A stretch of DNA of 48,248 nucleotides from Phycisphaeraceae bacterium (GTDB lineage: Bacteria > Planctomycetota > Phycisphaerae > Phycisphaerales > Phycisphaeraceae). The notes below the pieces were generated by a model. It made no database searches, was not told where the DNA came from, and saw nothing but the letters and a program-made list of their open reading frames with translations. Shown one piece after another: positions 10,581-43,800 of this stretch (positions are counted from its first letter, which is position 1; every line of letters begins with the position of its first letter). Location: positions 1 to 48,248 of the forward strand of contig JAFIFY010000107.1 in assembly GCA_020831765.1 (NCBI GenBank). Reading direction: 5' to 3'. The position numbers and the translations under genes are program-made.

Positions 10581-13500
10581 TCAATCGTCTATCGAGTCCT
10601 CATCCTTTGGAGCAAAGGCGTAAATGCCACCTCGACACTGGATAACCGCGCCATCCCTTCGGCTGAAAACCAGCATCACTGACCGGAATCGTCCTTCCTC
10701 AGGGCCGACCAATTCCGGCCCAATCGGCTTGGCGTCGCTTTTGCTTACCATGCGCACCACGAACACGTTTCCATCCTCCACAGCTTTGGCCTGCGGGATC
10801 AACGGGCCGGCATTCATGATGCTTCGTACGGCTCCTTCCATTCCCTGGATGAAGTGAGGGGCTTGAACTGAGTTGATCGGAACCATCTCATCGGCATCCG
10901 CATCGGACCACAATCCAACGAACAGATTGAAGTCGCGGTTGTGGCCGACGAGCACCATCCGACCTTCCGCATTCACGTCACCATGCAGATATCCCCGCAC
11001 AAGTGGCCCCATCACACTCCGTTCCAGCCTGCGCACAATCGCTCCAGTGCGAACATCGATCATCTCATAGTCCAGAGCCCTCTGGAATTGACTCAGGCTC
11101 AGGACAACATTCTGATCACTGTTCAACAGCCAAGTACCGCCGCGATACCCACGTGCCGACCATCGGATGCTCCCGTTCTCAATATCCAACAACGTGATTC
11201 CATCGTCGGCATTCCCATAGAGAAGACCTTCATCATGCAAGATCAGCTTCATCCGCGGTGAAAGGTCGTCAAGCTCAACTTGAGCGACGACACGACCGTC
11301 GGTGCGCTCCAGAACCGATACCACATTTCCTTCACCAAGTACCCAGATGCAACCCTGTCCGTATCCGACGGCGATCGGCTGCCAGAATGGAACATACCTC
11401 TCCCAGACAACATGACCATTGAGGGTATCGAATGCCCGGAGGACGACGCGGTTCGTCCGGGCATCCCGGACCAGCAGGGCGAATATCCCTTCACCCGCAA
11501 CGGCAGTGTCAAGATCGTGACGACCCTGAGCCGGTGTCCAACCCGGAAACTGGTGGACATGATGCATCCACGATCCGCCCAGGGGAACTCGCCAGAGAGG
11601 CTCGACTTCCCCACCTTGATCCGCCGCGCAATTGACGAGCCCGTATGCGATCAGGTGGTCCGTACCGACGGCAAAGCCGATATGCCCGTCTCGAAGCAAC
11701 GATGCGTCGGCATGGGTCAAGACCATCTCGTGCATATGGATGATCCCACGTCGATTCTGCATCGGGGCAGGACCATCGGCACCTTCGATCCGATCACTTA
11801 ATCGCACACGCCATGCCGATGAACCATCAGTCTGCCGTCCGTGAATGAACGGTTCAGATGATCTTGGCGAAGCCATGACCACCAATCCCTCCAGATGATC
11901 GGAAGCGTGCCTCCCATGCGTATCCAGGATCACCGTCGCAGGCACCTCATGGACCCATGATTGCCGATATTCGTAATCGCCCGGCTGGGGCTTGCGGTCT
12001 TCGGCAAGGGGTTTGGAAAGGCTCGCAAGCGCTTCACGGGCTCGTTGGGCAAGCCTTTCCGCTTGAGCCGGTGCGACGCCGTCCATAGTCCGAGCATCGA
12101 TCTCATCCCTGATCCACCGCCATTGCCGCGCGGCGGCCGTCTCCCATCTCATGCTCGTGTAGAACTCGGCCACCAGAACACCGTAGGAAATAGCATGCTC
12201 CGATTCACTGTCGAACATCTCCAGAAGTATGCGTTCAGCTTCTTCGATGCGGTTTTCGGCGACCAGCCGGTCCACCAGCTTAGAGGTCAGTTCCGGACCG
12301 ATCGGAGTCCGGCCCACGGTTCGTACCCAGGCAACCCAGTCCGCAACATCCGCATCCTCACCGATCTCCGAAGACCAGGCGCGGGCTGCCTCAACAACCC
12401 GCTCAATCGTCAGAGGATTCTTCAAGAGAAGCTCACTCAGGTGACGTCTGGCCAACACAACGGCTTGAACCCGATTTTCGACGTTGTCGCCAAAGTCGGC
12501 CAACAGTGAACGCGCCGGCTGGCGCCCGATCGGCAACAGATGATCGACCGCGGCTTCAATCTCTCCAAGACTTTCAAGAAGCCTGGCTTGTACCAATCCC
12601 AACTGCATCCGTCTTGCTTCATCGATCGGCAACGTGGCGGCTTCATCAAGCCATCGCCTGGCCTTGGCCGGATGCTGATCGGCCTGTTGCAGCAAAAGAT
12701 CAAAAAGGCGATCCACCACAGCCGTGCCGGCGGCATCCTCGACGTCATCTGGAAGTAACCGGCCAAGCTGCTCGATCGCCTGCACCGGGCGACCGGCAAC
12801 CGTCAGCAAATCGGCCATTTGCAGCCGAACTTCCTTTTCTCGGTCTGGCCGCTCCAAGATCGATCGCTTCAGGACCTGAAGTTGCCGATCGGTTTCGACG
12901 AGACGGCTGATTCGTCCGGGCTGATAGACAAGCATCCCGTCGTCAGATGCGAAAAGATTGCCAACCGGAAAACCGCCGTTTGGGCCCGCATGGGATTCAG
13001 CGATTGGCATGTCGTTGAGCGTAAGGCCATCTTTGGGATCAAGCTGGAAGATGGTCACATCGGACGGGATATAGATCGCATCTCCGGTGATCGCACCTCG
13101 GGCCGATTTGCCATTAATCGCTCGTGTCCATATCTGTCGGATGCGGCCACCGCCAACGTCATAACGGGCGGCCCTGCCCGGACCACCGAGTATCACACCC
13201 TGGTCGGCGGCGCCGATGGCATAAGTCAGGCCCGCGACGGCACGGTGATCCAACAGGCGACCGGTTGTGCGATCAAAAAGATGGATGGCCGCCGCATCCG
13301 ATGGCAGGACAACGACGTAGTCTCCGACGGGTATCACGGTGTCTTCGGCGAACCCGTAAGGAGGCGGATTGCGACCTCCCATCACCATCATCTGCCGTTC
13401 ACTGTCTCTCATTGATGTGTTGTCCGCCCGATAGGCAGTGGTCCATAGTGTTCGACCGTCCAAGGAAGATACGGCCGTCACGATGCCGCGTCCGGTCGCA

Positions 13501-15173
13501 ATGAAAAGTTCCCCGCTGTCCGAGGCCATCCCAACCGTACGATTGATCCTCCCGATCATCTGATGAGATGACACGATGTGTCGCCTCCAGAGTTCCCGCT
13601 CTCCAAGTCCTCGGGTGACCGTATCCGGACGGTCATCAAGGGCGATCAGATAGATGGTCTGGTGAATCTCGGCGACCACCAGCAGGTTCTCCCCGATGCG
13701 CATCGGAGCTGAGAGAAAATTGGTCGGGGTCGCTTCCGGGCCGGAGTGACGGTCCGCGGCGATTCGCCATCGAAGTCGACCGGTCCGGGCATCCACGGAT
13801 ATCAGGCGATGCCCGATAAGCAATTGACTGGTCACGCCGAACTGAGTCTCCGGGACGCGAAGACCGACCGCCCATTCATGCCCCTCTACAGCATAGATCA
13901 CGCCATCATCAAGGGTAATCTGCTGAGCGATCGAATCATCAAACAACAGTTGCTCTTCGGCCGATGTGGGTATCCGAGACGACAGAATATGATTGATCCT
14001 CGTCATCATCGGTGAGACCTGGGCCGCCGCTGTGATGGTTGGCGGAGGAGTCGCCTCGATGAACCACTTCAACTCTCCGGTTTCGATTTTCACCGCGACC
14101 AATGCCGGAACCTGTTTCGAACCGGGACGGAGGGGGTTGATGAAGTGATGAGTGCGAAAGTAGACGGTATCCTCATCAAAGAACAACTGACTTGTCGGAA
14201 TCCATTGATGCTGACGCCATCGTCGCGTGATCTCATGTGGTTGGCTGGTCCGATTGCGTACTTCTTCAAACGTTGTGAACTGCCGCATGTTGGGCAGCAG
14301 CCAGAGTGGCGCCGCAACGCCGATGAAATCGTCGGTTGTCCAGAGAGAGGCCCAAGACGGTGACTGCCCGGCTGAGCCTCCAAGGGGCATCGCGACCGCA
14401 CGCCGGCTTATATCTCCGAGGGCCGCAGAGCGATCCCGTATCACCCGCGGACTTGTGGCCAGAGATGCTTCTCGATCGGATATTTCCCTGAGCTGGTCGA
14501 TGATGGCGGGCTTGAACGCCTGCTCCGTTCGCCGCAGACGTTCCAGCGCGGCCGCCAGTTCCTGTTCCTCTCCCAGAAAAGCGTGAACCGCCGCGAGCCT
14601 TCGATCGATCATCCCGGCATCAAGCGACGGATTCGGATGCCTGCTTGCTTGCATAAGCAGCCTTCGCGCCATTCTGAAGTTCCGCTCATCGAGCAACATG
14701 CATCCCAACTCGAACGCGGCCCGATCGCCCTCGGACGAAAGAAAATATCGGGCCACGATCTCTTCCAGAATCGCTCTCCGATCCGCCTCGGAGGCCCGAT
14801 CCGTCCGGGCCCAAAGAGATCGAGCTTCCCGGTCCGCTGCCAGCGTATACGCCCGGCGCAATCGGGCATTGGCAAGTATCCGCTGTTCCACAAGATCCGC
14901 AACGGGAACGAAGCGGCCGTCCTCCGACGGGATCACCAGGCTCCGTTGTTCGAAAGCACGATCAAGAATCTGCTGGACGGTCATCGCGGCCAGATCGTAT
15001 TCATCTCCACGCAAGAATCGGTCCAGGTTCCGCAGCCACGTATCGACATCCAGATCGTGATCAAGGCCGCGCCGACTGCGCTCATCCTCCATTGCCTCCG
15101 AATCGGCCCAGGCGGTCACCGGAACGGCCGTCAAAACACCCAAGACCAGCAGAAACGCCAGTAAAGCGCTCAT
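10581..15173 (-). CDS. Large exported TPR / PQQ-like beta-propeller protein
   Basis: From the ATG at 15173 the protein is 1530 residues long with a signal peptide (MSALLAFLLVLGVLTAVPVT, then AWADSEA). The first 300 residues are helical TPR-like repeats (ALERLRR, MLLDERNFRMARRLLMQ). They are followed by a first PQQ-like propeller with blades such as LVAVKIETGELKWFIEA, LISVDARTGRLRWRIAA and TAVSSLDGRTLWTTAY. A second helical region (about 780-1050) and a second propeller (ALLVRDARTNRVVLRAFDT, LLDIENGSIRWSARGYRGG) close it. Such BamB/quinoprotein-like propellers paired with TPRs are common in planctomycetes, with unknown roles at the envelope. The frame stays open to an ATG at 15509, adding 112 residues without a signal or clear ribosome site. 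The chosen start also lacks a strong Shine-Dalgarno, so it is uncertain. Confidence 0.85.
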   Translation of the reverse strand: MSALLAFLLVLGVLTAVPVTAWADSEAMEDERSRRGLDHDLDVDTWLRNLDRFLRGDEYDLAAMTVQQILDRAFEQRSLVIPSEDGRFVPVADLVEQRILANARLRRAYTLAADREARSLWARTDRASEADRRAILEEIVARYFLSSEGDRAAFELGCMLLDERNFRMARRLLMQASRHPNPSLDAGMIDRRLAAVHAFLGEEQELAAALERLRRTEQAFKPAIIDQLREISDREASLATSPRVIRDRSAALGDISRRAVAMPLGGSAGQSPSWASLWTTDDFIGVAAPLWLLPNMRQFTTFEEVRNRTSQPHEITRRWRQHQWIPTSQLFFDEDTVYFRTHHFINPLRPGSKQVPALVAVKIETGELKWFIEATPPPTITAAAQVSPMMTRINHILSSRIPTSAEEQLLFDDSIAQQITLDDGVIYAVEGHEWAVGLRVPETQFGVTSQLLIGHRLISVDARTGRLRWRIAADRHSGPEATPTNFLSAPMRIGENLLVVAEIHQTIYLIALDDRPDTVTRGLGERELWRRHIVSSHQMIGRINRTVGMASDSGELFIATGRGIVTAVSSLDGRTLWTTAYRADNTSMRDSERQMMVMGGRNPPPYGFAEDTVIPVGDYVVVLPSDAAAIHLFDRTTGRLLDHRAVAGLTYAIGAADQGVILGGPGRAARYDVGGGRIRQIWTRAINGKSARGAITGDAIYIPSDVTIFQLDPKDGLTLNDMPIAESHAGPNGGFPVGNLFASDDGMLVYQPGRISRLVETDRQLQVLKRSILERPDREKEVRLQMADLLTVAGRPVQAIEQLGRLLPDDVEDAAGTAVVDRLFDLLLQQADQHPAKARRWLDEAATLPIDEARRMQLGLVQARLLESLGEIEAAVDHLLPIGRQPARSLLADFGDNVENRVQAVVLARRHLSELLLKNPLTIERVVEAARAWSSEIGEDADVADWVAWVRTVGRTPIGPELTSKLVDRLVAENRIEEAERILLEMFDSESEHAISYGVLVAEFYTSMRWETAAARQWRWIRDEIDARTMDGVAPAQAERLAQRAREALASLSKPLAEDRKPQPGDYEYRQSWVHEVPATVILDTHGRHASDHLEGLVVMASPRSSEPFIHGRQTDGSSAWRVRLSDRIEGADGPAPMQNRRGIIHMHEMVLTHADASLLRDGHIGFAVGTDHLIAYGLVNCAADQGGEVEPLWRVPLGGSWMHHVHQFPGWTPAQGRHDLDTAVAGEGIFALLVRDARTNRVVLRAFDTLNGHVVWERYVPFWQPIAVGYGQGCIWVLGEGNVVSVLERTDGRVVAQVELDDLSPRMKLILHDEGLLYGNADDGITLLDIENGSIRWSARGYRGGTWLLNSDQNVVLSLSQFQRALDYEMIDVRTGAIVRRLERSVMGPLVRGYLHGDVNAEGRMVLVGHNRDFNLFVGLWSDADADEMVPINSVQAPHFIQGMEGAVRSIMNAGPLIPQAKAVEDGNVFVVRMVSKSDAKPIGPELVGPEEGRFRSVMLVFSRRDGAVIQCRGGIYAFAPKDEDSIDD

Positions 15174-15511
15174 GGCGTTGGAACAGGTCAGCCCTGGTCG
15201 AGGCGAACTCAACTCGGTTGCATTGTCCGAAAGTAGAGGATCGACAGCGCGCTGTTGTCTGAAAAACATCATTTGTCCCATCTTTTTGGCGGCCTGCAAC
15301 CATCCATGCGCTTTGCTCTCGGAGGAAGATTCGATACACTTGGCCAAGCTTGGATTCGGCCCGTCCGAACCCATCAGCATACCCACAAAATTTACCAGGC
15401 AGCAGCAATTCTTTGGCCGGTCGTTGTACCAACGCCCTCCAGCGGTAGACGAGGCATCTTTGGGCGACGCTTTCAGAAAATGCTCTTTCGACACGACATT
15501 CACCTTCACAT

Positions 15512-20007: not shown

Positions 20008-23000
20008 TCAATCAGCCAGTCCATCCTCATCATCCTCACCATCGTCCCACAAGCCCAGCAAGCCGCCGGCGGGCGTCGAAGCGAGAACGCCGCCCGACGG
20101 ACGCGAAGTCAGAAGTCCGGCCAATGCCCCGGGCATGCCCGCGTTCGGGCCGGGAACCTCACCGGCAGCGCCTCGAGCGAACACCGGAACAGGACTCAGT
20201 GCCCCGGCGTTGTCCGGGATCGGCCCTGGGATGGGGTCCGATGCCCAGTCGCCCGTGCCCGTGAGGCTTGTGGCCGAATTCGATTCTTCACTCAAAACCG
20301 GTAACAATATCGGTGATGAAGTGGCCTGAACTGCTTGCGATCCATGCGACCCAGGTTCATCACTCGATGCCGCCAACAGCGCCGGCGGCGACGAGGCCTG
20401 GCCATCGTCCGCATCGCCCAACCCAACCATCAACGCCGCGGGCTCGGGCGGAACGACGCTCTGGCCGTGATGCTCCAACAGCAGGAACGAATCGCGAAGC
20501 CCCACGCGGCCGTCACCGGTAAAGTCGCCATCGGTGAAGCCCGCGCCGCTCATGCCAAGGTTCGCCTGCACGATCGCGAGGTCCGCATCGTCCACCACGC
20601 CATCCAGATTCGCATCGCCGGGCAACGCGACCAGAACGTCAGGCTGGACGAAGTCACCGCCGTTGCGGCCATCACCGTTGCCGTCCATCAGGTTGCCGAT
20701 GCCATCAAAAACCATCTGGTCATCGAGCGTGATGGTATAGAACGCCGGCACCAGGGCCAGGGAAGTGAGATCCCAGGTCGCGGTCCAGGTCGACTGGTCG
20801 TAGCTGAAGGATGACCCGGACAGGTCCGCCGCCTCATCGAGCGTCTGGTTCCAGATCGTCATGCTCTGGAGCTGGATCGAGTCGATGACATCCTTGCTGA
20901 ACTCGATGCTGATGGTGTTCAACTCATCGGGCCGACCGACGCCGCCATCACGGACAACCTCGACCACCTCGGGCCCCCGATTGTCGCCTTCCTCGATCCG
21001 GAATCGGTTGAACTCCAGCCAGTGCCGACCGGCATCGCCGTTAAAATCCTTGTCGCTCAGGAAGCCGGCCATGCGCACATCGATGGCATCAATCGGGATG
21101 TCAAAGATCGCCGAGGCGGCATCAAAGTTGATGTTGTCCGCCTCCGGGGTGAAGACCGCCCACATCGAATCGGCAAGCGATTGGCCCTCCCACGCCTTGA
21201 GACCGGAGCCCGAGAACGTCTGCTCCGAAACATGAAGCAGATCACCATCGCCGAGCACCCAGCGTCCTTCGGCCATGCGCTCCCAACGGTTGATGTTCAG
21301 TTCGATGCGGCGGTTGCCGCCCAGCCGCATGGGGCTGCCCTCGAGGAGGAAGTCATCCTCGGGCCAGAGCCAGATGGTGTGCAACTCGGCATCATCGGCC
21401 CCCGAGGGCTGCATTCGCAGGGAGACCCGATCCTGGTCCGCGTTGTTGGTTACCGCCCGAGTCTGAAAAGCGGCCGAGGTGCTGCCCAGGACGGTTCCGA
21501 TCGCGCCACCGTAGAACGTCGGATTGTCGCCGTCGTAGCTTGGGCCGACGTTGGGGGACATGGGCGTATCAAGGCTGAACGCATAACTGACGCGTGAATC
21601 ATCCTCGAGCTCATTGCCCGAATAGTCACCGACGGTGACCGTGGGATTCGTCCCGCCGCGCAGCGTCTGGTTGGAGCTGACATAGTCACCGCCCCAGTCG
21701 ATGAACGGAAGCGAGTAGTCCTCGATGAAGACCGTCAGGGTGGGATTGTCGGGCGGCTCGATGTGGTAGTTCCCCGATTCGGTAAGCGTCAAGGTCACCG
21801 TCTCAGTGGGCTCGCGGAAGTCGTCGGCGATCGGGGTGACCACCAATTGAGCCGTGCTGTTGCCCGGAAGGAAATTGATCCAGCCATCGCCGAGAATCCC
21901 ATCCGGCGAGCTAAGCGTGAAATCACTGAACCCCGCCGTGCCGCCGATCTGGAAGAATGCGGTCAGGGGATCATCATTCGGCCCGGTGCGGTTGAACTGG
22001 AAGATGGCCGGGGAAAGGTCTTTTTCCTTGGCGACCGATTCGATCACTTCGATGTCCACGCGGGGCGTGGGCGCAACGACGGTCACGGTGGTCGAAACCG
22101 GCGCTGTAAGTGCGGTGGCGGTGAACCCGGCGAAGTGATACCAGATGCGTCCGTTGCCGCCGACCAGCCCATCCTGCTCGGTCAGAACACCCAGAGCCCG
22201 AATATCGTTGAACACGCGAGGCTCAAAGACCGCGCTATCCTGGTCGAAATCCATGCCGCCGAAGACATCGGTGCGCGGCGAGTACGGCGCCCAGTCGGTA
22301 TCCGCCGGGTTGATCGAATGCGTGGCGATGCCGCTGAAGGTCGCCTCCGAGACGAAATATTGATCGCCGTCCTTGATCAGCCATCGACCCACTCCGGTAT
22401 TCTCCCAGCGCAGGTAAGTGACGGTCAGCTCACTATCGACATCAAAGTAGACCCGCTGGGCATGGGCCCCGGCGAGAAAGTCCTCCTTGATGAAGAGGAA
22501 TGCCGCGCGATGCTGGAGTTCGGCCGCGCCGCTGGGCCGCTGATCGCGGATGTTGATGTAATCCTCGGCTCCGCTGTTGGTGAACTGATGCGTCGGAAAG
22601 CCGCCCATGGTCAGCGCATCGATGGCGATGCTCTCGATTCCGCCATAGACGCGCCCACTGGGCACGTTATTGCCGGCATTGGCCAGGAAGCCGCCGGGTG
22701 TGGTGCCAAAGGGGGCAGCGCGTACCGAATCGTCATCAAAGCCGTTGCCGGAGGCATCCACACCCGAGAGCCGCAGCAGCCCGGGCAGCGACTGATTGTT
22801 GGAGATCATGTCGCCGCCGAAGGAAACGATCGTGTCACTCGACCCGCCGCTCACCGTCAGGCTCACCACGTAATCGCCAGGTTCATCGTAGAGGTGGTCC
22901 ACCACCGCGCCGCTGCCGAACTGGCCATCGCCAAAGTCCCATGCGTAGTTCAGGCCGGTGTCATCGAAGCCGGTGGCGGTGAACCGCACCAGCAACGGCG

Positions 23001-25569
23001 ATTCACCGCTGACCGGGTCCGCACGAAAACTGCCCGTGGCATCGGGCTGGTTGGCCGGACCGGTATCGAACACCTCGATGCCCGAGATGACCCAGTACGG
23101 CGGCATGAACGTCAACTCAAGCTGACCATCGGTCACGTTCACCTTGAAGTCATACACGCGGCGGCCGTTGTTGAGCGTGTTGGCGTTGGAAACCACCCGC
23201 TCACCATTGGCCAGGATGCCCGGATAGGTTGGGTTGTCGTTGTGGCTCAGACGAAGAAGCACCTGATACTCCCCGTCGGGCAGATCGACCAGGAATACGC
23301 CGGCCTGATCCGGCCCACCGGGGTACTTGCTGAACTGGTGCCAATCGTTGTACAGATCGCGGCCATACCAGCTCACCGAGTTGCGATTCGAGCCCGAGGC
23401 GAAGTCAGGCCCGATCTCCCGCCAGCCGAAACCGGTCTCCGGCGAGTAAAGGGCATTTGCCAGAGTCAGCGGGATATATCCCGGCTGGATGTAGTTGGCG
23501 TTGGAGTTAAGGTCCAGTCGGACACTGACCCCGTCCCGTTGCGCTACACCGATAATCTCTTCATACGTCGAGACTCCACCGAAATCATCGCTGACCGTCA
23601 GGCGAACCTTAAACACCCCGCCCCGGTCGAAGCGATGGTTCACGATCATGCCTTCGGCCGTCTGACCATCGCCAAAGTCCCATTCATAGGTCAGGCCGGA
23701 GGTGTCGCCGGACGGCGTCGTGGTGCTTGAAGCATCGAAAGTCAGGTCCAGAGGCGCCACGCCCGCGAGGTTGCTGATCGAGTAAGAAGCGTTGGGCGGA
23801 CCGACGACCTGGGTCGTGGTCGACCAGCCGCCGCGCCCATCGGTCACCACGAGCGTCAGCGATGCGTTGGCCAGAAGGTTGAACGTGTGCTCAATGGTCT
23901 GGCCACTCTGCTGGGTGCCGTCGGAAAAGACCCAGGTATAGGTCAGCGAATCATCATCGGCATCAAAGGACAAACTTGCATCCAACTCCAGCAGAACCTG
24001 TCCGCCCCCAAGATTCTCGATGACCGTGCTTTCGAACTGCGCTACCGGCGCGGAATTGAACGGATCACCGGCCGAATCGGCGATGACCGAAAACCATCCG
24101 GTATTGCCCGGCCCGGCCGTGCCCTGCACGGGATCGACCAGGTAGAGTTGATTGTTGCTGCTGCCGCCAATGACGATCTGCCGCGCATCGCCGCCAAGTT
24201 CGCGCACGGCGATCGTCCGCGTGATACCGCCGGTCGGGCGGAACGTGTATTCCCTCACCGTCAGGTCCGACTCCATGATCATCAGATAGGAGCCGCCCAG
24301 ATAATTGTTGTTCACACCGGGATTGAATCCCGTCTGGGCTGAACTGTAGGCGGGATGGGTCGGCAGCGGAAGCCCCCATGCCGTGCTGCCCGCGATATAG
24401 ACCCGGCCCTCGCTGTCGGCATGGATGGCGCCGTTTCGCACACCCACCGTGTTACCTTCACCCCCACTCAATCGCGTCAGAAAGTGGTTTCCATCGACGA
24501 ACGCGCCGGTTTCCGGTTCGTACTTACCGAAAAAGCTGATGTGGTTGGCGCCGGTATTGAAGGGCGAATGGAAACTGTCGCCGCCGGAGAGCGAAACCGG
24601 GGTATCGATATCGAACGGATCATATCGGAAGAGGTTGTTGCCGCCCGCGGATTCAAAGAACAGATAGAGGTAACCATCGTCACCGATCGTCGCCCGGTAA
24701 CCCCGCGTGTCGGCCATGTTGTTGGTCGGCGAGTTCAGGTATCGATCGGAGTTCTCGTCACCCACCCAGTCGTAGCCGGTGTACTTGACCACACCGTTGT
24801 AGTCCCGTCCTTCGTAGTAGGATATCTGCACCGGCAGCCCGCTTGCCGAATCAAAAGCGTTCTTGAACCCCAGGTGGATCAGGGTCTGGCTATCTTCGTG
24901 CAGGGCGATGTCGTTGGTCCACCGGCCGGTGGTGAAGCCGCCGAGCTGATTGCCCGCCGAGTCAAAGACCCGCATGTCTCCACCCAGCGACGTCACCGCA
25001 TCGATGCCGCCTCCGCCCAGAACCGCAACGGTCCCACCCGACGCCGCATCAACCCGCTGGACGTTGCTCATGCTCAGCGTCGTTGTGTCCTTGCTCCACA
25101 GCAGTTGATCGGCATCGGGATTGAGCTTGGCAAAACCCTCACCCGCCATGGCGACATAGAGATTGCCTGCATCATCCGAGGAAAGATCAAGCACCATGTT
25201 GGCCAGGCGCGTGACTGAAAGAACTTGCGTGCCGTCGGAGGAAAGCCGAACGATCGAGCCCGATGAGTTGGCCGTCGCGCTACCGAGAATGGTCGGCGTG
25301 AGTCCGCCGGGCAGCGCATCACTGATGTTGGCCGCCAGCACCACGGTGCCGTCCGATTGGATCACCGCGCCGCGAACCGCATCATTGGTGCCCGATCCAC
25401 CCAGCCACGAGGAGGCCGATGGATCAAACCCCATTCCACTGACCGACAGGAGCAGGCGCGGCTCAAGAGTCTCCAACCCCCGCCATGTCGGACCGGAGAT
25501 GCGGTCGCGCATCGATAAAGCCTGAACGAAGCCACGGAGACAACGCGATGCAACGGATCGACCAACCAT
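20008..25569 (-). CDS. Giant LEPR-XLL protein with propeller, PKD, Calx-beta and dockerin modules (paralogue 1)
   Basis: The protein has 1853 residues. Near its N-terminus it has LETLEPRLLLS (33-43), the planctomycete LEPR-XLL motif of secreted or surface proteins. A propeller-like region follows to about 500. Then come PKD domains (about 505-590, 594-670 with YEWDFGDGQT, and 845-912), a malectin-like carbohydrate-binding domain (682-835), an unrecognised domain (914-1153), a Calx-beta domain (1165-1283) and a second copy of that unrecognised domain (1288-1526). A type I dockerin follows (1648-1700, PGDANLDGVVDDADLAIVQA and FTGDGRVGLRDSFLLLEHHG). The last 145 residues are low-complexity and end in a conserved tail GGLLGLWDDGEDDEDG. 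AGGAGAAGG precedes the ATG. A large extracellular adhesin, scaffold or sugar-binding protein is likely. Confidence 0.92.
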   Translation of the reverse strand: MVGRSVASRCLRGFVQALSMRDRISGPTWRGLETLEPRLLLSVSGMGFDPSASSWLGGSGTNDAVRGAVIQSDGTVVLAANISDALPGGLTPTILGSATANSSGSIVRLSSDGTQVLSVTRLANMVLDLSSDDAGNLYVAMAGEGFAKLNPDADQLLWSKDTTTLSMSNVQRVDAASGGTVAVLGGGGIDAVTSLGGDMRVFDSAGNQLGGFTTGRWTNDIALHEDSQTLIHLGFKNAFDSASGLPVQISYYEGRDYNGVVKYTGYDWVGDENSDRYLNSPTNNMADTRGYRATIGDDGYLYLFFESAGGNNLFRYDPFDIDTPVSLSGGDSFHSPFNTGANHISFFGKYEPETGAFVDGNHFLTRLSGGEGNTVGVRNGAIHADSEGRVYIAGSTAWGLPLPTHPAYSSAQTGFNPGVNNNYLGGSYLMIMESDLTVREYTFRPTGGITRTIAVRELGGDARQIVIGGSSNNQLYLVDPVQGTAGPGNTGWFSVIADSAGDPFNSAPVAQFESTVIENLGGGQVLLELDASLSFDADDDSLTYTWVFSDGTQQSGQTIEHTFNLLANASLTLVVTDGRGGWSTTTQVVGPPNASYSISNLAGVAPLDLTFDASSTTTPSGDTSGLTYEWDFGDGQTAEGMIVNHRFDRGGVFKVRLTVSDDFGGVSTYEEIIGVAQRDGVSVRLDLNSNANYIQPGYIPLTLANALYSPETGFGWREIGPDFASGSNRNSVSWYGRDLYNDWHQFSKYPGGPDQAGVFLVDLPDGEYQVLLRLSHNDNPTYPGILANGERVVSNANTLNNGRRVYDFKVNVTDGQLELTFMPPYWVISGIEVFDTGPANQPDATGSFRADPVSGESPLLVRFTATGFDDTGLNYAWDFGDGQFGSGAVVDHLYDEPGDYVVSLTVSGGSSDTIVSFGGDMISNNQSLPGLLRLSGVDASGNGFDDDSVRAAPFGTTPGGFLANAGNNVPSGRVYGGIESIAIDALTMGGFPTHQFTNSGAEDYINIRDQRPSGAAELQHRAAFLFIKEDFLAGAHAQRVYFDVDSELTVTYLRWENTGVGRWLIKDGDQYFVSEATFSGIATHSINPADTDWAPYSPRTDVFGGMDFDQDSAVFEPRVFNDIRALGVLTEQDGLVGGNGRIWYHFAGFTATALTAPVSTTVTVVAPTPRVDIEVIESVAKEKDLSPAIFQFNRTGPNDDPLTAFFQIGGTAGFSDFTLSSPDGILGDGWINFLPGNSTAQLVVTPIADDFREPTETVTLTLTESGNYHIEPPDNPTLTVFIEDYSLPFIDWGGDYVSSNQTLRGGTNPTVTVGDYSGNELEDDSRVSYAFSLDTPMSPNVGPSYDGDNPTFYGGAIGTVLGSTSAAFQTRAVTNNADQDRVSLRMQPSGADDAELHTIWLWPEDDFLLEGSPMRLGGNRRIELNINRWERMAEGRWVLGDGDLLHVSEQTFSGSGLKAWEGQSLADSMWAVFTPEADNINFDAASAIFDIPIDAIDVRMAGFLSDKDFNGDAGRHWLEFNRFRIEEGDNRGPEVVEVVRDGGVGRPDELNTISIEFSKDVIDSIQLQSMTIWNQTLDEAADLSGSSFSYDQSTWTATWDLTSLALVPAFYTITLDDQMVFDGIGNLMDGNGDGRNGGDFVQPDVLVALPGDANLDGVVDDADLAIVQANLGMSGAGFTDGDFTGDGRVGLRDSFLLLEHHGQSVVPPEPAALMVGLGDADDGQASSPPALLAASSDEPGSHGSQAVQATSSPILLPVLSEESNSATSLTGTGDWASDPIPGPIPDNAGALSPVPVFARGAAGEVPGPNAGMPGALAGLLTSRPSGGVLASTPAGGLLGLWDDGEDDEDGLAD
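20046..20112. repeat. 67-bp exact repeat shared by the ends of both LEPR-XLL genes (copy A)
   Basis: The sequence is identical to 25980-26046. Identity extends through third codon positions, which points to recent duplication or gene conversion of the tail. Confidence 0.9.
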
Positions 25570-25938
25570 GTTTCCTTCTCCTGCCGGAACCTGAAATCGC
25601 CACGATGAATATCGGGGCCATTCGCAATCGAGAGCCCAAGCGCGGCAGCTTGAATACCACTCGCACGAGACGCTAAATCTAACCCCACAAACCGTATCGC
25701 GTCAACAAAAGATCACAACCAACGCCAGCGCGCAGGGTCCGGCGACCATGCCGCCAGATCGATTCAGTCTCAAGCACTTGCAAGGGTGTGACTTACATCA
25801 GATTCGATCGGCCCAATGGGTGCAAAAATTAAACAGAACTGAGACAGACGCCCTTCCTCGTTGGGCGGTTTCAACCACCACTTGACCACGTGCCAGGGCC
25901 AGGCGGGGGCGATTCTCCACCGACGCCCGAGCTCGATA
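25570..25938. other. 369-bp gap between the two LEPR-XLL genes
   Basis: No gene is present. The end next to paralogue 1 carries its likely promoter (listed separately); the stretch 25800-25850 is locally AT-richer. No terminator with a T run was found behind paralogue 2. Confidence 0.4.
25676..25705 (-). promoter_or_regulatory. Candidate sigma-70 promoter of LEPR-XLL paralogue 1
   Basis: On the minus strand TTGACG (25700-25705) is followed after 18 bp by TAGATT (25676-25681), about 107 nt before the start codon. The -35 matches consensus at five of six bases and the -10 at four of six. Confidence 0.35.
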
Positions 25939-28900
25939 TCACAGGCTCAGGCGCTCATCCTCATCATCCTCGCCATCCTCCCACAAGCCCAGCAAGCCGC
26001 CGGCGGGCGTCGAAGCGAGAACGCCGCCCGACGGACGCGAAGTCAGCAGTCCGGCCAAAGCCCCGGGCATGCCCGCGCTGGGGCCGGGAACCTCACCGGC
26101 CGCGCCTCGGACGAACACCGGAACTGGACTCAGCGCCCCGGCGTTGTCCGGAATCGGCCCTGGGATGGGATCCGATGACCAGTCACCGGTGCCCGCGAGG
26201 CTTGTGGCCGAATCCGATTCCTCATTCACGACCGGCATCAACACCGGCGATGAAGCGGTCTGGACAACTTCCGATTCACTCAACCCCGCGGACAACGCCG
26301 ATTCATCCCCCATCACCAACGCCGAATCATCACTCGATGTCGCCAACTCCGTTGGCGGCGAGGCCTGGCCATCGTCCGCATCGCCCAGCCCAACCATCAA
26401 CGCCTCGGGCTCGGGCGGAACCACGCTCTGGCCGTGATGCTCCAACAGCAGGAACGCATCGCGAAGCCCGACGCGGCCGTCGCCGGTAAAGTCGCCATCG
26501 GTGAAGCCCGCTCCGCTCATCAGAAGGTTCGCCTGCACGATCGCAAGGTCCGAATCGTCCACCACACCATCCAGATTCGCATCACCGGGCAACGCGACCA
26601 GAACGTCTTCGAGCAGGAAGTTGCCGCCGGGAGCCCCATCGCCATTGCCATCCAGGTTGTAGCCGGTCGCACTGACGATCAGGTCGGCATCGAGCTCGGC
26701 GGTATAGAAGCCCGCGCCCAGGCCCAAAGCCGCCAGGTCCCATGTCGCCTCAAAGCTCACCGGATCGTAACTGAAGACCACACCGCTGGACAGATCGACA
26801 GGCGATCCGGTGGTCTGATCGATAAGGGATAGAGCATCAGCCGTGATCGTCGGCACATCCACATTGAACGTGAAGCGGAGGCTCTCCAGGGTCGCGGGCG
26901 TCACCTGCCCATCATCGCGCAAGACCCCCGTGACCACCGGCATGCTGTAGATCGGCGAGATGGGTTGAATCGAATGCGCATCGCCCGCGGCGAAATACAG
27001 ATCGTCAATAAAGACGCTGGTGAAATTGGGATGGTTGGCGTGCGAGACGTTGAACATCGTCAACGGCATCGGGTTGGCAAAGCCCGAACCCGTGCGGAAC
27101 GGGCGATCGGTGGCGACCACTTGTTGCTCTGAATACGCCGGATCGTCATTGCTCTGCATGTAGACCGAGTAGCGGTTGGTCGAGCTATCGGCCACCACCC
27201 AGACGTTGTACCAGGTGTCGAGTTGATAGGGCTGGCCTTCGATGCCGTTGATGTTGATGATCGGCCCGGCCACGGTGGTCTGTGTGTATGTTCCGGCATG
27301 GAAGCCGATGTAAGTGGCCTGCGATGCCGCCTGATCGACCAGCATGCGGAAGAACATGGTGCCGACCTGGTTGTCCCCGATCCAGATCATGTCATCAATG
27401 CTTCCGGCGCGCTGGGTCCGATCGCGGCTGAAGAGCGTGAGGTTGCCTTCATCCAGCGGATCGTGCAGGACACGCGCATTGGAATCACCCAGCCACGTCC
27501 AACTGTCACGCACGGGCATCTGGTGGTGGTAGTCCTCGAAATCGTCGATCAGCACATAGTTGAGCGGCACCTCGCTGTCGAAGATCACCACGCGCGTCTC
27601 GTTGAAACCGCCGATCACATAATCCGGGCCGAGCCGGTCCACCGTCACGATGACCCATTCAAAACCCTCTTCCAGCGCATCATTGATGGGCGTGATGGTC
27701 ATCGATGCCGAGTCCTGACCCGCGGGAATCAGGATCGTGCCGACCTCCGGCGTGGAAACGGTGTAATCTTCACCATGGGTCGCCGCGCCCGAAAGCACAT
27801 AACGCACGACCATGTCATACGTGGTCGGACCGGTACGGAAAAACGTCACTTCGCCGGGCGGGAAGCCTTCTTCTCCGGTGTTGGGCTGCGTGGCCAGCAC
27901 CGTCACCGTCGCCGGTGTTTCGTCATCAACCAGGATCACGGTTGAATCAATCCGCGTTCCCAGGTTGTACGCGCTGTCGGCCTGCAACTGAAGCGTGACG
28001 GCCCGAAGACCATCGGCAATGTCGTTATCGATCGCCCTGATCTGCAGCTTGGCGAATGGATCGCCGGCGGGAATCACCAGGATTCCGGGCGTCGCGGTCA
28101 GCAACTCATAATTGGACGCCGGCGTGTCGGTCTGGATGGTGTAATGGACCACCAGATCGCCCGTCGTGTCACCATCACGAAGGATCGTCCACTCGGCGGT
28201 ATCCAACGCGTCTCCCTCATGGGCCAGCGCATCCGTGGTGACCACCTCGACGATCGGCAGTTGCGACGTGGCATCGCCGACCGGCCGGATCATCGTGAAG
28301 TCATCCATGTGGACGAAGTGCTGGCTGGGATGGTTGTTGTAGCGGACGTAGAACGTATCCAGCGCGCCCGTGACCGTACCGCCCTGGAAATTCCGTGATC
28401 CGAGCAATCGCCGCTCGGCGTAATAGCCGTCATCGTCACTCTGCAGGTAGACCGAATACCGCTTCTGCTGATTGTCGATCTCGATCCAGATGCGATACCA
28501 GGCGCCGGCTTCAGGCGCGTGGTGTACCTGGTTGGATGCTGGCCCGATCGCAACATGCCCCTGGCCGATGAAGACGCCGGCGTTGACCTGATTGGTTCCG
28601 GCCACCCCCATGCCGAAGTTGCCGCCCGAGCCGGTATTGGGGCCGACGTAAGCGCGGAAGAACAGCGTCGCCTGTTCATCAGCATCGATCAGGAATCCGG
28701 GGTCGCTGTTGCTTGACTGCGTATCGCGGTTGATCACAAAGCCCACGAGATTGTCCGCCCCCGATGGGTCCTGGACCACCGCCGCCGCGCCCTGACTGGT
28801 CCACGACCCGGAACCGTGCAGCGGCTGACCGGCCGTGTAGTTTTCAAAATCTTCAACCACCGTCACCGAAGCCAGATGCTGCGGCACGAGGAATAGCGAT

Positions 28901-31791
28901 GTCCGGTTGGAGGCGACCAGGCCGTCATGGACCTGAATCTCGATGACCCGCTCACCCCCGCTGGGCGTCGCCTGCACGTTGTCATACTGCACACTGCGCA
29001 ACACCGCCTGGTAGTTGGCCGCGCTGTCCTCGCCCCAGAGCGTCAGGGTGCCGGTCCGGACATCCCAATCCGCGCTGATGTTGCCCTGGGTCTGGACAGT
29101 GAGTACGTCTTCGGCCGAGAGATAGCCTTGGGCGATGCGCACCGTCGCATGCTGGAGCGTCGCGGCCGGGTCGCCCGCGATCAACAGACCGGGAGCAAGA
29201 GTCTGAGCCGCGCCGGTCATCATCGCCGGGCCACCGGGCATGCCGGACAAGCGGGCCGCCTCCTGTGTCTGATCGCTGAGTTGATGAATCTCCAGTCCCG
29301 ACCATTCCCAACGACCATGGCTGCCGGCACCTGACTGAGCGTGCAGGTCCAGGGTCAACTGGCCATCTTCCACGACGACCTCGAAAATCGACTGATACAT
29401 GGAACTCGAGCCGACCGACCGGTACTTATCCCGCAACTCGCCCTCGGCCTCGATTCCCAGAAAGGTGTAACCGTGGTTGGCCGCGGTCAGATAGGCCACC
29501 ACCCGGTAGGTTCCGTTGGGCACATCCACGAGGAACGTCGCCGGGATATGGGTCTGATACGAGGTCCCGGCCAGGTGAGCCTCGCGCAGCATCAGATCGG
29601 AGAAATGCGAGGACTGTTGGCGAACCCGGTATTCGCTGTGAATGGATTCATAACCAAAACCGCGCTCGGAGTCATATTCCTCGAGGAAAGCCGCCGTCCA
29701 GCCCGGCGCAACCGTCGTGAACGGCTGATCGAAATCCTGGAAGTCCAGTCGCAGGTTCCAGGCATTCGGGTCGGCGACAACGATGGTTCGGCTCGTGGTG
29801 CTCTGCAGCCCCAGATTGTCGGTCACCGTCAATGTGACCTGATAGACGCCGGCTTCCTCGTAGGTGTGCCATGGCGTGATGCCCACGCCGGTGTTGCCGT
29901 CGCCAAAATCCCAGACATAACCGAGCGTGGCCGGGTCCTGGCTCAGGTGCGAGCTGGCCGACGCATCAAAATCGACCGTGACCGGCGCATCGCCGTAGAA
30001 GGCCGAGACATTGAACGATGCGTTGGGGGTGCCCAATCGATATTGGGCGTGGCTCCAGCCGCCTTCACCATCCAGAACCGTCAGAGTGATGGTCCGCGTG
30101 GCCCCAAGCTCGAACGTGTGCTCAACGATCAGACCTTCGGCGCTCGTTCCATCACCAAAGTTCCAGAGATACCGCAAGGTGTCATCATCCGGATCGCTCG
30201 AAGCGCCCGCATCCATCCGCAGCGTCATCTCCGTCAGCGTGGTATCGACGACCGTCACGCTGAACGCGGCCGTCGGCGCCTGGTTGCCGGGAGTCGGTGC
30301 GCTGTCGGCGATCACGGCGAACCATCCATTATGGCCGGTGCCCGGCTGGCTCTGGATCGGGTCGAGCAGGTAAAGATCGCCGCCGGCCCGGCCGCCGGTC
30401 ACGATCTGGGCCGATCCGCCCGGCAAGACCCGCGCGGCGACGGTGTGGTTCATGCCGCCGGTCAGGCTGCTGATGTGGGCACGCGTGGTCAGGTTCGGCT
30501 CCATCACCAGCAGAAACGATCCGCCCAGGTAGTTGTTGTCCACGCCGGGATTGAATCCCGCGCTGCCCGAATAGCTCGGGTGCGAGGGAAGCGGGAGCCC
30601 CCACGCCGATTGTCCGACCACGTAAACCCGGCCCTCACTGTCGGCGTGGATGTCGCCGCGCCGCATGAAGGCCGTATTTCCCGATCCGTTGGTCAGGCGA
30701 GTCAGGAAGTGGTTGCCGTTGACGAATTCGCCCGTCGCCGGCTCGTACTTGCCAAAGAACGTGATGTGATTCGCCCCGGTATTGAACGGCGAATGGAAGG
30801 AATCACCGCCGGCCAGCGACACCGGCGTGTTGATATCAAACGGATCGTATCGGAAGAGGTTGTTGCCGCCCGCCGACTCGAACGCCAGATAGAGGTATCC
30901 ATCATCGCCGATCGCGGCCCGGTAGCCGCGCGTATCGGCCATGTTGTTGGTCGGAGAATTGAGATAGTCCGGACTGTTGGGATTGCCCGACCAGTCGTAG
31001 CCGGTGTACTTGATCGTGCCGTCGTAGGCGATGCCCCGGTAGTAGCTGATCTGAACCGGCAGGCCGCTGGCACCATCGGTGGCGTTTCGATAGCCCAGGA
31101 AGACGACCGTCCCGCTGGGCTCGTGAATGGCCACATCGTTCTTCCACTTGCTGTCACTCACCCCGCCAAGATGGATGCCGGTCGGATCAAAAACCTGGAC
31201 ATGACCGCCCAGCGTCGTCCCCGCGTCCAATGAGCCGCCGCCCAGCACCGCCACATATCCATCCGGCCCGGCATCGATCCGCTGCACATTGGCGAAACCA
31301 AGATCCATGGTCGACTTGGACCAGAGCACACTCGTCGCGTCCGGATTCAGCTTCGCGAACCCCTCGGTCCACATGGCGACATAGAGATTCCCAGCCGAGT
31401 CCGCCGCCAGGTCCATCACCTTGCCCGCCAACCGGGCCACCGAAAGCACCTGAGTCCCATCGGCCGAGAGCCGGATGATGGCCCCCGACGAACTGCCCGT
31501 GGCGCTGCCCAGCAGGTCCGGTGTCAATCCGCCGGGCTGGGCATTGCCGATGTTGGCCGCCAGCACCACCGTGCCGTCCGACTGGATGATCGCCCCGCGA
31601 ACCTCCTGATCGTTGCCCGCCCCGCCCAGCCACGAGGAGGTGGAGTAGTCAAAGCCCAGCCCCGACCCTGAAAGCAGGAGGCGGGGCTCAAGCATCTCCA
31701 ACCCACGCCACGACAGCTCCGACCCGGACTCAATGGCGGAAAGTTGACGAACGGATCGAACAGCACGACAGACGGACGGCGTGTACTTCAT
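25939..31791 (-). CDS. Giant LEPR-XLL protein with propeller, PKD, ConA-like, Calx-beta and dockerin modules (paralogue 2)
   Basis: The product has 1950 residues. After a basic leader comes LEMLEPRLLLSG (about 31-42), then a propeller-like region closely similar to paralogue 1 (shared LNSPTNNMADTRGYRA, GDSFHSPFNTGANHI). PKD domains lie at about 504-580 and 587-660 (YVWDFGDGNTG) and a malectin-like domain at 674-835. The middle then differs: a cadherin-like stretch (880-957), two concanavalin-like domains opening with EDFENY (about 977) and DDFEDY (about 1414), and two Calx-beta domains between them (1180-1400). The dockerin (1732-1785) and the C-terminal tail match paralogue 1 again. ATG 31791 is chosen because GAGGAATAC precedes it; the frame extends to 31881 without support. 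It probably works outside the cell, like its twin. Confidence 0.92.
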   Translation of the reverse strand: MKYTPSVCRAVRSVRQLSAIESGSELSWRGLEMLEPRLLLSGSGLGFDYSTSSWLGGAGNDQEVRGAIIQSDGTVVLAANIGNAQPGGLTPDLLGSATGSSSGAIIRLSADGTQVLSVARLAGKVMDLAADSAGNLYVAMWTEGFAKLNPDATSVLWSKSTMDLGFANVQRIDAGPDGYVAVLGGGSLDAGTTLGGHVQVFDPTGIHLGGVSDSKWKNDVAIHEPSGTVVFLGYRNATDGASGLPVQISYYRGIAYDGTIKYTGYDWSGNPNSPDYLNSPTNNMADTRGYRAAIGDDGYLYLAFESAGGNNLFRYDPFDINTPVSLAGGDSFHSPFNTGANHITFFGKYEPATGEFVNGNHFLTRLTNGSGNTAFMRRGDIHADSEGRVYVVGQSAWGLPLPSHPSYSGSAGFNPGVDNNYLGGSFLLVMEPNLTTRAHISSLTGGMNHTVAARVLPGGSAQIVTGGRAGGDLYLLDPIQSQPGTGHNGWFAVIADSAPTPGNQAPTAAFSVTVVDTTLTEMTLRMDAGASSDPDDDTLRYLWNFGDGTSAEGLIVEHTFELGATRTITLTVLDGEGGWSHAQYRLGTPNASFNVSAFYGDAPVTVDFDASASSHLSQDPATLGYVWDFGDGNTGVGITPWHTYEEAGVYQVTLTVTDNLGLQSTTSRTIVVADPNAWNLRLDFQDFDQPFTTVAPGWTAAFLEEYDSERGFGYESIHSEYRVRQQSSHFSDLMLREAHLAGTSYQTHIPATFLVDVPNGTYRVVAYLTAANHGYTFLGIEAEGELRDKYRSVGSSSMYQSIFEVVVEDGQLTLDLHAQSGAGSHGRWEWSGLEIHQLSDQTQEAARLSGMPGGPAMMTGAAQTLAPGLLIAGDPAATLQHATVRIAQGYLSAEDVLTVQTQGNISADWDVRTGTLTLWGEDSAANYQAVLRSVQYDNVQATPSGGERVIEIQVHDGLVASNRTSLFLVPQHLASVTVVEDFENYTAGQPLHGSGSWTSQGAAAVVQDPSGADNLVGFVINRDTQSSNSDPGFLIDADEQATLFFRAYVGPNTGSGGNFGMGVAGTNQVNAGVFIGQGHVAIGPASNQVHHAPEAGAWYRIWIEIDNQQKRYSVYLQSDDDGYYAERRLLGSRNFQGGTVTGALDTFYVRYNNHPSQHFVHMDDFTMIRPVGDATSQLPIVEVVTTDALAHEGDALDTAEWTILRDGDTTGDLVVHYTIQTDTPASNYELLTATPGILVIPAGDPFAKLQIRAIDNDIADGLRAVTLQLQADSAYNLGTRIDSTVILVDDETPATVTVLATQPNTGEEGFPPGEVTFFRTGPTTYDMVVRYVLSGAATHGEDYTVSTPEVGTILIPAGQDSASMTITPINDALEEGFEWVIVTVDRLGPDYVIGGFNETRVVIFDSEVPLNYVLIDDFEDYHHQMPVRDSWTWLGDSNARVLHDPLDEGNLTLFSRDRTQRAGSIDDMIWIGDNQVGTMFFRMLVDQAASQATYIGFHAGTYTQTTVAGPIININGIEGQPYQLDTWYNVWVVADSSTNRYSVYMQSNDDPAYSEQQVVATDRPFRTGSGFANPMPLTMFNVSHANHPNFTSVFIDDLYFAAGDAHSIQPISPIYSMPVVTGVLRDDGQVTPATLESLRFTFNVDVPTITADALSLIDQTTGSPVDLSSGVVFSYDPVSFEATWDLAALGLGAGFYTAELDADLIVSATGYNLDGNGDGAPGGNFLLEDVLVALPGDANLDGVVDDSDLAIVQANLLMSGAGFTDGDFTGDGRVGLRDAFLLLEHHGQSVVPPEPEALMVGLGDADDGQASPPTELATSSDDSALVMGDESALSAGLSESEVVQTASSPVLMPVVNEESDSATSLAGTGDWSSDPIPGPIPDNAGALSPVPVFVRGAAGEVPGPSAGMPGALAGLLTSRPSGGVLASTPAGGLLGLWEDGEDDEDERLSL
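25980..26046. repeat. 67-bp exact repeat shared by the ends of both LEPR-XLL genes (copy B)
   Basis: The sequence is identical to 20046-20112 in the same orientation and encodes part of the conserved C-terminal tail. Similarity continues for about 200 bp upstream in the gene with scattered differences. Confidence 0.9.
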
Positions 31792-40895: not shown

Positions 40896-43800
40896 TTAGA
40901 GCACAGTGATCTTCATGCCGACCGGGTCGATGCCGAACTCAAAAAATCGCGCAAACCGATTCGGCGGCTTACTTTCCAGCACATTGCGGATGGCCCTTGC
41001 CGCCTCCGCGTCACGAGCGATCATGAAGATGAACCCGCCGCCCCCAGCGCCGGGTAGAACCTTGCCGGCCAGCAGCGGCTCAATCGGGCGCAACAGTTTC
41101 TCGATCGCCGGATTGGTCGAGCCTGGATCGATCCGCTTCTTCATCGACCAGTAATCATCAATGCCCCGTGCAAAGGCCTCGACATCACCCCGGTCCAGGT
41201 GGTCCTTCATTCTCTCAGCGCCATCCTTCAGTTGACCGATCAGGGCCACCGTCGCCGGATCGCGCCCCAGGTACCGCCCCACCACATTCTGCAGGATGTT
41301 CCGCGCCAGCCGCTTCTGTCCAGTGAAATACAGCAGCATCCGGTCGCGCAGGGCGTCTCGCATCGACATATCCATCCCCGCCCAGTGAAGCGATAGCGCC
41401 TGCTCGGGCCCGGGAGAGGAGCGGATGATCTTGACACCCGGCGTCATACCACCGACCTGGTCCTGCCATCCTCCCGCCGTGGTCATCATCTGCTCGAGGA
41501 TCGATGTCCGGGCGATCAGCTTGGGGGCACCGCTGCCGGCCATCGGCTCGCCGGTGATTCTCGCCAGGCATGCCAGCATTGCCGCGCCCAGGATCGAACT
41601 GGTTCCCAGCCCGGAACCCTTGGGCAGGGCACTGAACAGCGTGACATCGAGGCCGCCACCGAGCACATTGAGCCAATCCTCGAGCTTCCGCTTCGGATCG
41701 CGCGGACAGATGCCGGCCAGGACCAGGGCCGCCTTGGGCAGCGCTGCCCAGTCGGCCGGATCGGTGTAGGTCAGGGCATCACGCGTTGAACGAATCTCGA
41801 TGCGACGGCCCAGATCGATGCTGGACAAGGTAATCCAGGGGTTCTCCGAAAGCTTGGCCATGACCTGGATCGGATACTGGCCGTTCAGGGTGACCGCGGC
41901 GTTGATCACGGTGCCCCCCAGCTCGGTGCAGATTGGTGGTGTATCTGACCATCCCCCGGCGAAATCCAGCCGCGCTGGGGTTGTCACCCAACAGGCCTGA
42001 TCGTGCAGGATCGCCGCCGGCTTGGGCTCGGTCACCGCTGGGGCCTGCTGAGCGACAGCGCGGGCCACCGCGGCCAGGGAATCTGAAAGCGGATCGGCCC
42101 CAGAACCAGCCGGCAATACCTGGCCAAGTTTGGGATACGCCTTGAGAATGACATCCACCAGTTTCAGCAGACGAGCTTCCACCAAGGGCTGGTCGTTGCG
42201 CTTGAGAACTCCCCGAATCTGGCTGAGGGCTTCCCGCGCTTCGGTCTGGTCCTGAAGCTGGGCCACGATGTGCTCGGCCGGCAGCCAGGGATGGCGAAGC
42301 AATCGGGTACCCAGGTGTTCAAGCTCGCCTCGCCGCTGAATGTCCAGCCGGTGCTCGATCAGCCGGGCGTGATCCACTCGCCGAAGGATTTCGGCCATGT
42401 TCAGCTTTCCCGCCGCCGACCATTTGGCCCGCCGGGAAGATTGATCGAGGAATCCTAGCGCATGATCCACCACCTGCGAAAGTGACCCACTCGACCACAG
42501 ACGGGCTTCCCACAGCGTTCGCCCGGACTCGGCTCCCTTCGGCCAGAGTCGCCCCGGCTCCCAGCCTCGCCGGCTCAGCATCCGGTCCATCGGCTCATGT
42601 AGAAACGTCCCGCCACGCTCCAGCGGCGTCTTGAAATCATCTTCAATGCCAAAGAGTACCGCCGTCCATCGCCCGCGCGGCAACGGAAAACACGCCAGGC
42701 CCACGCCCTCGGGCAACACCAGCTTCCGCTTGAGCTTCGAGGGAAGCCCCACCAGCACATTCCGACCCTCCAGGACCAGGTCCACACCTTGAAGGTGGCA
42801 CGCCTCGATATAGACGTTCGGGCCGGTGCGGATTGCGCAATCAGCGAGGATCGAGTTGAAAATGAACGCACCTTCGATCGAAGCATTGGCCGGAAGGCTG
42901 CTGCGGTCCAGATTGCGGAACTGGAAGTGCTGGGCGGTGCGGTTCAGGCCGCTCATGTTGGTGAGCAGCTCGCGCGTCGCCCCGATATGGAAGAACTCGC
43001 ACCATGGAAGCACATTGGCGTGAAACGGAATCCCGTTGAGTCCTCCATGAATCTTCTTGAGAATCGCCTCGGTGCTTCGGCTCGATGCCGTCCCGGTTGT
43101 GTGGGCACCACCCAACCGCTTGAGGTAGGACCGCTGATCGATCCCGCCCGGCACGGCGATAAGCAGTTGCTCATAGAGGTCGATCGTCGGGCACCCGCCC
43201 TCTTCGAGTTGCTTGAGGATACTCACTCCCCTGACCGGCCGGCCGCGCGATATCCTCGCTCCGGCCATCCGCAGCATCTTTTCCACGGTCGGAGGATCAA
43301 GGCTGATGATCCCTGTATCGATCAGTACGCGTCCGACATCATCGACCGCACCGCTCGCCCGCGCGGCGGCCTCATCCGGTTTCTGAAGGAAGTCCACCAC
43401 CCGATGGCCGGCATCGGTCAGGTAAACCCCATGCTTGGTGCCTCGCTCCAGCGGCCCGGGATAAGCAACGCCGGTGATGCCCGGCCGGTCGAATCGCGTC
43501 GCCGATGAATCAAAGGTCAACAGCACATCGCCGGCCGCCAGCAGCACCTGACCATCCGGAGCCGCCGGAAGCTCCAGCAAGTCCCGCAGAATCAGATCGA
43601 ACAGCGTCGCCGGCTGATCGCTGCGACCCGGCACATCACAAGGCAGCGGTGCAAAGACCTTACCCTGCGCCGCGTATGCACAAAGCCGGCGACTGTCTCC
43701 GCCGGAGTGAATCACCACGATGCGTTGACCGGCAAATAACGATGCCAAGTCGCGGATCCCCGGCCGCCGGGCCGACAACTCCCGGGCAAGCTGCCAGAGC

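Follow-up and report, generated by a model that had tools for sequence, protein, structure and literature searches.

Adhesin pairs that share their ends but differ in the middle are already known. In non-typeable Haemophilus influenzae, HMW1A and HMW2A are paralogous giant adhesins which have their secretion and anchor ends in common, the central binding domain being their most variable part, with 36% identity in the reference strain (PMC8262952). Similarly, the gingipains and HagA of Porphyromonas gingivalis combine adhesin modules in various ways with a common C-terminal sorting domain, and both rearrangement and gene conversion have been invoked in this family (PMC5266723). Among Planctomycetes, giant genes of more than 5 kb are frequent, and most of them reportedly code for surface proteins or PKS/NRPS (PMC5177795).

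Here, we analyzed a window of 48,248 nucleotides from a Phycisphaeraceae bacterium, namely the whole of contig C142 from a genome (G000) of 4.71 Mb assembled in 193 contigs and 98% complete. It carries two adjacent open reading frames, A and B, arranged head to tail on the minus strand and separated by ~370 bp; all their features described below lie on this strand. Gene A (20008..25569) encodes, as deduced from its reading frame and translation, an 1853-residue LEPR-XLL / dockerin-like surface protein, with its ATG behind AGGAGAAGG. The frame of its paralogue, gene B (25939..31791), is open to a GTG at 31881, and its likely start is the ATG at 31791, behind GGAGCGAGG, which gives 1950 residues; B residue numbers are counted here from the GTG at 31881. 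The two genes have separate ribosome-binding-like sequences and dissimilar upstream regions, and promoter and terminator scans gave nothing better than shuffled sequences. Both proteins follow a common frame, composed of a LEPR-XLL segment, a propeller, two PKD domains, a galactose-binding-like domain, a Calx-beta domain, an Ig-like domain, a dockerin-like domain and a tail. An earlier note on this DNA had described tandem LEPR-XLL paralogues of one layout, which holds for the propeller, PKD and dockerin-like domains and the tail present in both, one domain name excepted. A plasmid origin was rejected, the matches listed being only partial and covering at most 17% of the query. Elsewhere in the window, a further giant gene (10581-15509, minus strand) encodes 1642 residues with PQQ/BamB-type propeller repeats and displayed no kinship to A or B by the searches made, and a bifunctional fucokinase / fucose pyrophosphorylase-like gene, with PF07959 and GHMP kinase domains, lies at 40896-43976 (minus strand).

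We consider it very likely that A and B go back to an old tandem duplication, that they hold different modules at two sites, and that their last 616 bp at the 3' side were copied by gene conversion or an equivalent event. Their products are probably secreted, modular, putative polysaccharide-binding surface proteins of a Phycisphaeraceae-like planctomycete.

In a genome search with the NF012209 model (cut-off 17 bits), the LEPR-XLL segments of A (25444..25476) and B (31654..31701) scored 19.9 and 23.5 bits, respectively, and by this search both proteins would belong to the LEPR-XLL family; on the whole proteins, the same model gave 15.0 bits for A and 16.8 for B, slightly under this cut-off. 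The following domain (24070..25428 in A, 30298..31653 in B) is propeller-like, as suggested by weak matches of the B copy to beta-propeller models (SBBP, DUF5122) and by a tree of homologues. In the codon alignment, the two copies are 68.7% identical in DNA and 68% in amino acids, with a dS of 1.16; the DNA identity had been put at about 80% by eye and is 69% when measured. Since synonymous sites are near saturation (dS ~1.2), the propeller and N-terminus are kept alike by purifying selection. Conversion at the 5' end is unsupported, and we rejected it on the basis of this near saturation and of the dissimilar upstream regions. The same propeller occurs in a Verrucomicrobia MAG (L070:10001-11386), with 45% identity to that of B, inside a 4172-residue giant protein of fibronectin-type-III-like make-up. 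In genome G033 (L077, on the reverse strand of contig C97), a 616-residue protein has the propeller joined directly to a dockerin-like domain and PEP-CTERM, and thus resembles a minimal A or B devoid of a middle.

Downstream of the propeller, PKD domains 1 and 2 (23542..24069 in A, 29773..30297 in B; PF18911/PF00801) are ~51% identical in DNA in the codon alignment, and PKD domains number three in A and two in B. The next domain (23062..23541 in A, 29272..29772 in B) had been called malectin, a name we abandon, the best match being the galactose-binding-like AGA-YXIM_GBD model PF21254 (cut-off 27 bits), which is weak in both proteins, with 23.8 bits in A (E 4.5e-5) and 20.7 bits in B. The two copies of this domain are 28% identical in amino acids and 43% in DNA.

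The middles, which are 45% identical in DNA in the codon alignment, differ at two sites. Site 1, between the galactose-binding-like and Calx-beta domains, is occupied in A by a third PKD stretch (22834..23061) and an unnamed beta-sandwich domain, U1 (22075..22833), and in B by a domain with no Pfam match (28876..29271), a concanavalin/galectin-like domain, ConA1 (28267..28875), and an extra Calx-beta domain (27910..28266; PF03160 E 9e-4, below cut-off). Site 2, between the Calx-beta and Ig-like domains, holds U2 in A (20965..21711, from the alignment of A modules) and ConA2 in B (26962..27570, 30% identical to ConA1). Each protein contains its own module type twice, once per site: U in A and ConA in B. 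Between the sites, one Calx-beta domain is kept (21712..22074 in A, with a weak PF03160 match; 27571..27909 in B, from the alignment with that of A and the PF03160 scan), the A copy being 27% identical to this second Calx-beta of B and 40% to its counterpart in the B orthologue considered below. The modules are indeed different, as the notion of swapped middles had it, but the exchange was not whole, with two sites flanking a kept and alignable Calx-beta domain. The inventory of U1, U2, ConA1, ConA2 and Calx-beta modules is likewise retained, with the addition of the overlooked domain of B (~residues 871-1002), which recurs in giant proteins of relatives, with matches at ~888-993 in three genomes (G024, G025 and G053).

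Structural models suggest different affiliations for the two module types. ConA1 is predicted to adopt a concanavalin A-like / galectin-like fold, its model, of moderate confidence (pLDDT 53, pTM 0.59), matching legume lectins in Foldseek (E 1e-5) and galectin-8 with a Z-score of 11.6 (rmsd 2.6 over 130 aligned residues, 10% identity). U1 and U2, which are 33% identical, have no Pfam or NCBIfam match. The U domain is predicted to be a beta-sandwich (pTM 0.74 for the U2 model) with uncertain relatives: the best Z-score was 7.9, to CBM11, a value that ordinary beta-sandwich matches also reach, and Foldseek matches were weak. That U and ConA form one diverged family was rejected, as no profile relation was found between them (hhalign probability 0.2%) and their models retrieve different folds first; a shared beta-sandwich origin, if any, would be remote. 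The U domain is rare, occurring in 5 of 151 genomes of the order, and can be viewed as an unnamed domain family of ~250 residues. In the present genome, it also exists as a stand-alone 311-residue frame ending in PEP-CTERM (L095, C42:10714-11647), to which U1 is 32% identical, and in four other genomes it occurs within proteins of ~370-480 residues (L173, L174, L175, L176, L178).

The 3' ends have a distinct history. Upstream of the dockerin-like domain, the Ig-like domains (20641..20964 in A, 26608..26961 in B), so named by position and look, with no Pfam match, are 41% identical in amino acids and 56% in DNA, with a dS of 1.03 in the codon alignment, and lie outside the homogenised tract. 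The latter, which comprises the dockerin-like domain and the tail, was delimited by a change-point fit to 20022..20640 in A and 25956..26607 in B; its 616 aligned bases are 90.4% identical, against 53% before and 44% after. Borders are abrupt and fall at the start of the dockerin and shortly before the stop codon. In the codon alignment, the dockerin is 93.3% identical in DNA (dS 0.20) and the tail 87.4% (dS 0.24), and differences at 4-fold sites amount to 17% in the tract against 52% in the propeller (Fisher p = 7e-10). The sliding-window synonymous comparison which the earlier note had called for is sharply bimodal (dS 1.16 in the propeller against 0.20-0.24 in the dockerin and tail) and rejects a uniform divergence along both genes, the case which that note regarded as contrary to its reading. 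Nor is identity graded towards the ends, as previously thought: it passes from 53% to 90% to 44% across sharp borders. The long perfect run reported at the 3' ends exists, with a length of 68 bp (A 20112-20045 / B 26046-25979) rather than 67. Inside the tract, differences are scattered almost uniformly (longest run p = 0.047), so that a single event of moderate age fits as well as repeated events. Within the genome, this tail is common to A and B only, and a genome-wide homogenisation of tails was rejected.

An outgroup allowed these events to be placed in time. Among 51 genomes of the family, a B orthologue was found only in G033, on a 4722-bp contig (C195, PUMS01000168.1) from a Phycisphaeraceae MAG, the closest named relative in which the gene occurs; no A orthologue was found, including in G033, which is 71% complete. 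This contig aligns with B residues 218 to 1790 at 70% identity and contains all the middle modules of B, at 66-84% amino-acid identity. Its propeller is 76% identical to that of B and 65% to that of A, the tree A,(B,C), in which C is the G033 orthologue, having a support of 84/88, and its PKD domains, galactose-binding-like domain and middle likewise resemble those of B more than those of A. Since this orthologue sides with B and has the modules of B, the duplication and the B middle predate the split of the two genera. The earlier proposal of a duplication followed by module exchange is thereby retained as regards the different modules at two sites, with the exchange moved back to before the genus split.

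Site patterns uniting B with the orthologue outnumber those uniting A with B in the propeller (161 vs 96) and in the middle (612 vs 189), and this relation is reversed in the dockerin (0 vs 28), with Fisher p = 1e-11 against the propeller and 9e-9 against the adjoining Ig-like domain; this incongruence covers 33 codons, the outgroup contig ending inside the dockerin and leaving the tail beyond without an outgroup. As the dockerin groups A with B, against the rest of the gene, copying would have taken place in this lineage, after the genus split. Differences at 4-fold sites (17% in the A-B tail vs 47% across the genus split) similarly suggest a tract younger than this split. Even if the G033 orthologue had changed its own dockerin, a common copy of recent date would be needed to explain the low synonymous divergence between A and B. 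A low-dS tract with defined borders, younger than the species split and in conflict with the tree, is the pattern expected of gene conversion, so that conversion or an equivalent copy event is well supported at the 3' end by these comparisons. The view that gene conversion keeps both ends alike is upheld for this end alone, the 5' end having a dS of ~1.2.

The dockerin-like domain scored 23.0 bits in A and 27.3 in B against PF00404 (cut-off 22.9) in the genome search, and 19.9 and 21.9 in the whole-protein scan. By eye, it contains two EF-hand-like calcium loops, GDANLDGVVDDADL and GDFTGDGRVGLRD in A, with the same pattern in B. As no cohesin (PF00963) was found at E <= 0.01 in this 98% complete genome, we term the domain dockerin-like and claim no cellulosome. 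The tail of both proteins closes with an L-x-L-W-acidic motif (GLLGLWDDGEDDED in A, 20029..20100; GLLGLWEDGEDDED in B, 25963..26034), found by a C-terminal motif search. A and B end in these LGLW-acidic tails and lack the PEP motif, hydrophobic stretch and basic end that define PEP-CTERM, whereas PEP-CTERM-like tails are carried by the 15 other, non-LEPR dockerin proteins examined in this genome. The LEPR-XLL proteins whose end is known in this genome (A, B and one on contig C187) have LGLW followed by acidic residues, the third having its L-x-L-W-[DE]-acidic C-terminus at C187:7840-7911. The motif also terminates 8 of the 10 complete LEPR-XLL frames of genus g9 examined, L104 being left out (L103, L105, L106, L107, L108, L122, L123 and L125), against a chance expectation of 0.4% per protein, and none of the LEPR-XLL frames examined from other genera. 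A profile search across the family recovered the motif from this genome and from every one of the six g9 genomes, plus one marginal match elsewhere. Near-C-terminal matches in L102 and L104 (GLWDQRG) were set aside as probably unrelated sequence. No curated model of the motif was found, and the literature searched on LEPR-XLL, dockerin and PEP-CTERM in planctomycetes provided nothing useful. This putative alternative attachment or sorting end might, as a rather doubtful suggestion, be the cognate sorting or anchor signal of LEPR-XLL/dockerin proteins in this lineage, replacing PEP-CTERM, in which case occasional copying of the dockerin-tail cassette between the tandem giants would keep the diverged binding proteins on one attachment partner. 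In genome G049, three different giant LEPR-XLL genes (L116, L118 and L119, on contigs C31, C33 and C5) leave their contigs inside a common repeat module, 80-95% identical in DNA over 120-300 bp, which seems to break assemblies there.

Other explanations for the likeness of the 3' ends were considered. Strong constraint, whether imposed by codon usage, by an overlapping gene on the opposite strand or by an essential anchor, could in principle preserve them with no recombination, and we regard this as very improbable. Antisense open frames do overlap the A and B tails, but such frames accompany both genes along their length, which is usual for DNA of this GC content, and GC3 in the tract (0.70-0.74) is not above that elsewhere. 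Other LEPR-XLL proteins also have the C-terminal motif, yet the tails of g9 paralogues are dissimilar in DNA beyond the dockerin: the g9 orthologue pair L106/L123 matches at 79% over the last 900 nt and the post-dockerin tails of paralogues give no match, so that homogenised tails would be neither a general feature nor intrinsically frozen. In addition, the B orthologue has diverged freely in its dockerin (dS 1.8). By contrast, it is possible, if on balance unlikely, that one gene lost its old C-terminus and took the whole dockerin-tail cassette of its neighbor through a single unequal exchange or duplication, which would be a special case of the copy event. The borders, which match the dockerin start and the gene end, agree with such a capture, as does the variation of C-terminal types by gene, the other dockerin proteins examined in the genome ending in PEP-CTERM. 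The Ig-like domain is, however, homologous in A, B and the orthologue, and a homologous C-terminus therefore probably existed; the differences and indels of the tract fit conversion and capture equally.

Also very improbable is the reading of A and B as a device dedicated to diversification, with active swapping of middles between ends that stay fixed. Although the ends are fixed and the middles different, and although the genome also encodes the U module as an exported protein of its own, another genus has kept the B middle, identities among U1, U2 and the stand-alone copy are only 32-33%, and the N-terminal end is not homogenised. Furthermore, the search for the same tandem locus with other middles, suggested earlier as a check, returned none in 51 genomes of the family or ~390 of the phylum. 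Module replacement being older than the genus split, a fast device is not indicated.

Under the preferred reading of ancient duplication and late 3' copying, an old tandem duplication gave rise to A and B, which share one colinear frame and hold, at the two sites beside the kept Calx-beta domain, the U type in A and the ConA type in B. Long after the remainder of the gene had diverged, the last 616 bp, encoding the dockerin-like domain and tail, became alike, presumably when one neighbor was converted by the other or received its sequence through an equivalent ectopic copy event. The copied stretch would be limited upstream by the dockerin border and downstream by the point, shortly ahead of the stop codon, where homology ceases. 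The LEPR-XLL segment may serve in export or sorting and the common tail, with its L-x-L-W-acidic end, in display or attachment, and the middles of A and B may bind different carbohydrates. Rare copying of the tail could keep both proteins matched to one C-terminal partner as their binding parts drift apart. The locus would represent a clean natural case, in an uncultured planctomycete, of giant surface proteins in which concerted evolution affects a single functional end: the cassette which probably meets a common partner stays alike, and the binding middles do not. An apparently unrecorded C-terminal motif which travels with LEPR-XLL in place of PEP-CTERM may also offer a handle on the attachment of these common but unexplained planctomycetal surface proteins.

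Compared with the giant genes of planctomycetes, which are described by length in the accessible part of that report (PMC5177795), a tandem pair with a converted 3' end has no counterpart found in that part. Like HMW1A and HMW2A, A and B are paired proteins with common ends and different middles. However, the HMW1A and HMW2A loci are apart, their binding domains are of one kind and exchange takes place between strains, whereas A and B are in tandem, carry modules of different families, underwent an ancient exchange and had their C-terminal end copied, not a binding domain. Like the gingipains and HagA, A and B are paralogous surface proteins with combinatorial modules and a common C-terminus; unlike them, the P. 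gingivalis proteins include proteinases, rely on a type IX secretion CTD, and exhibit a much higher module identity and population-level variation.
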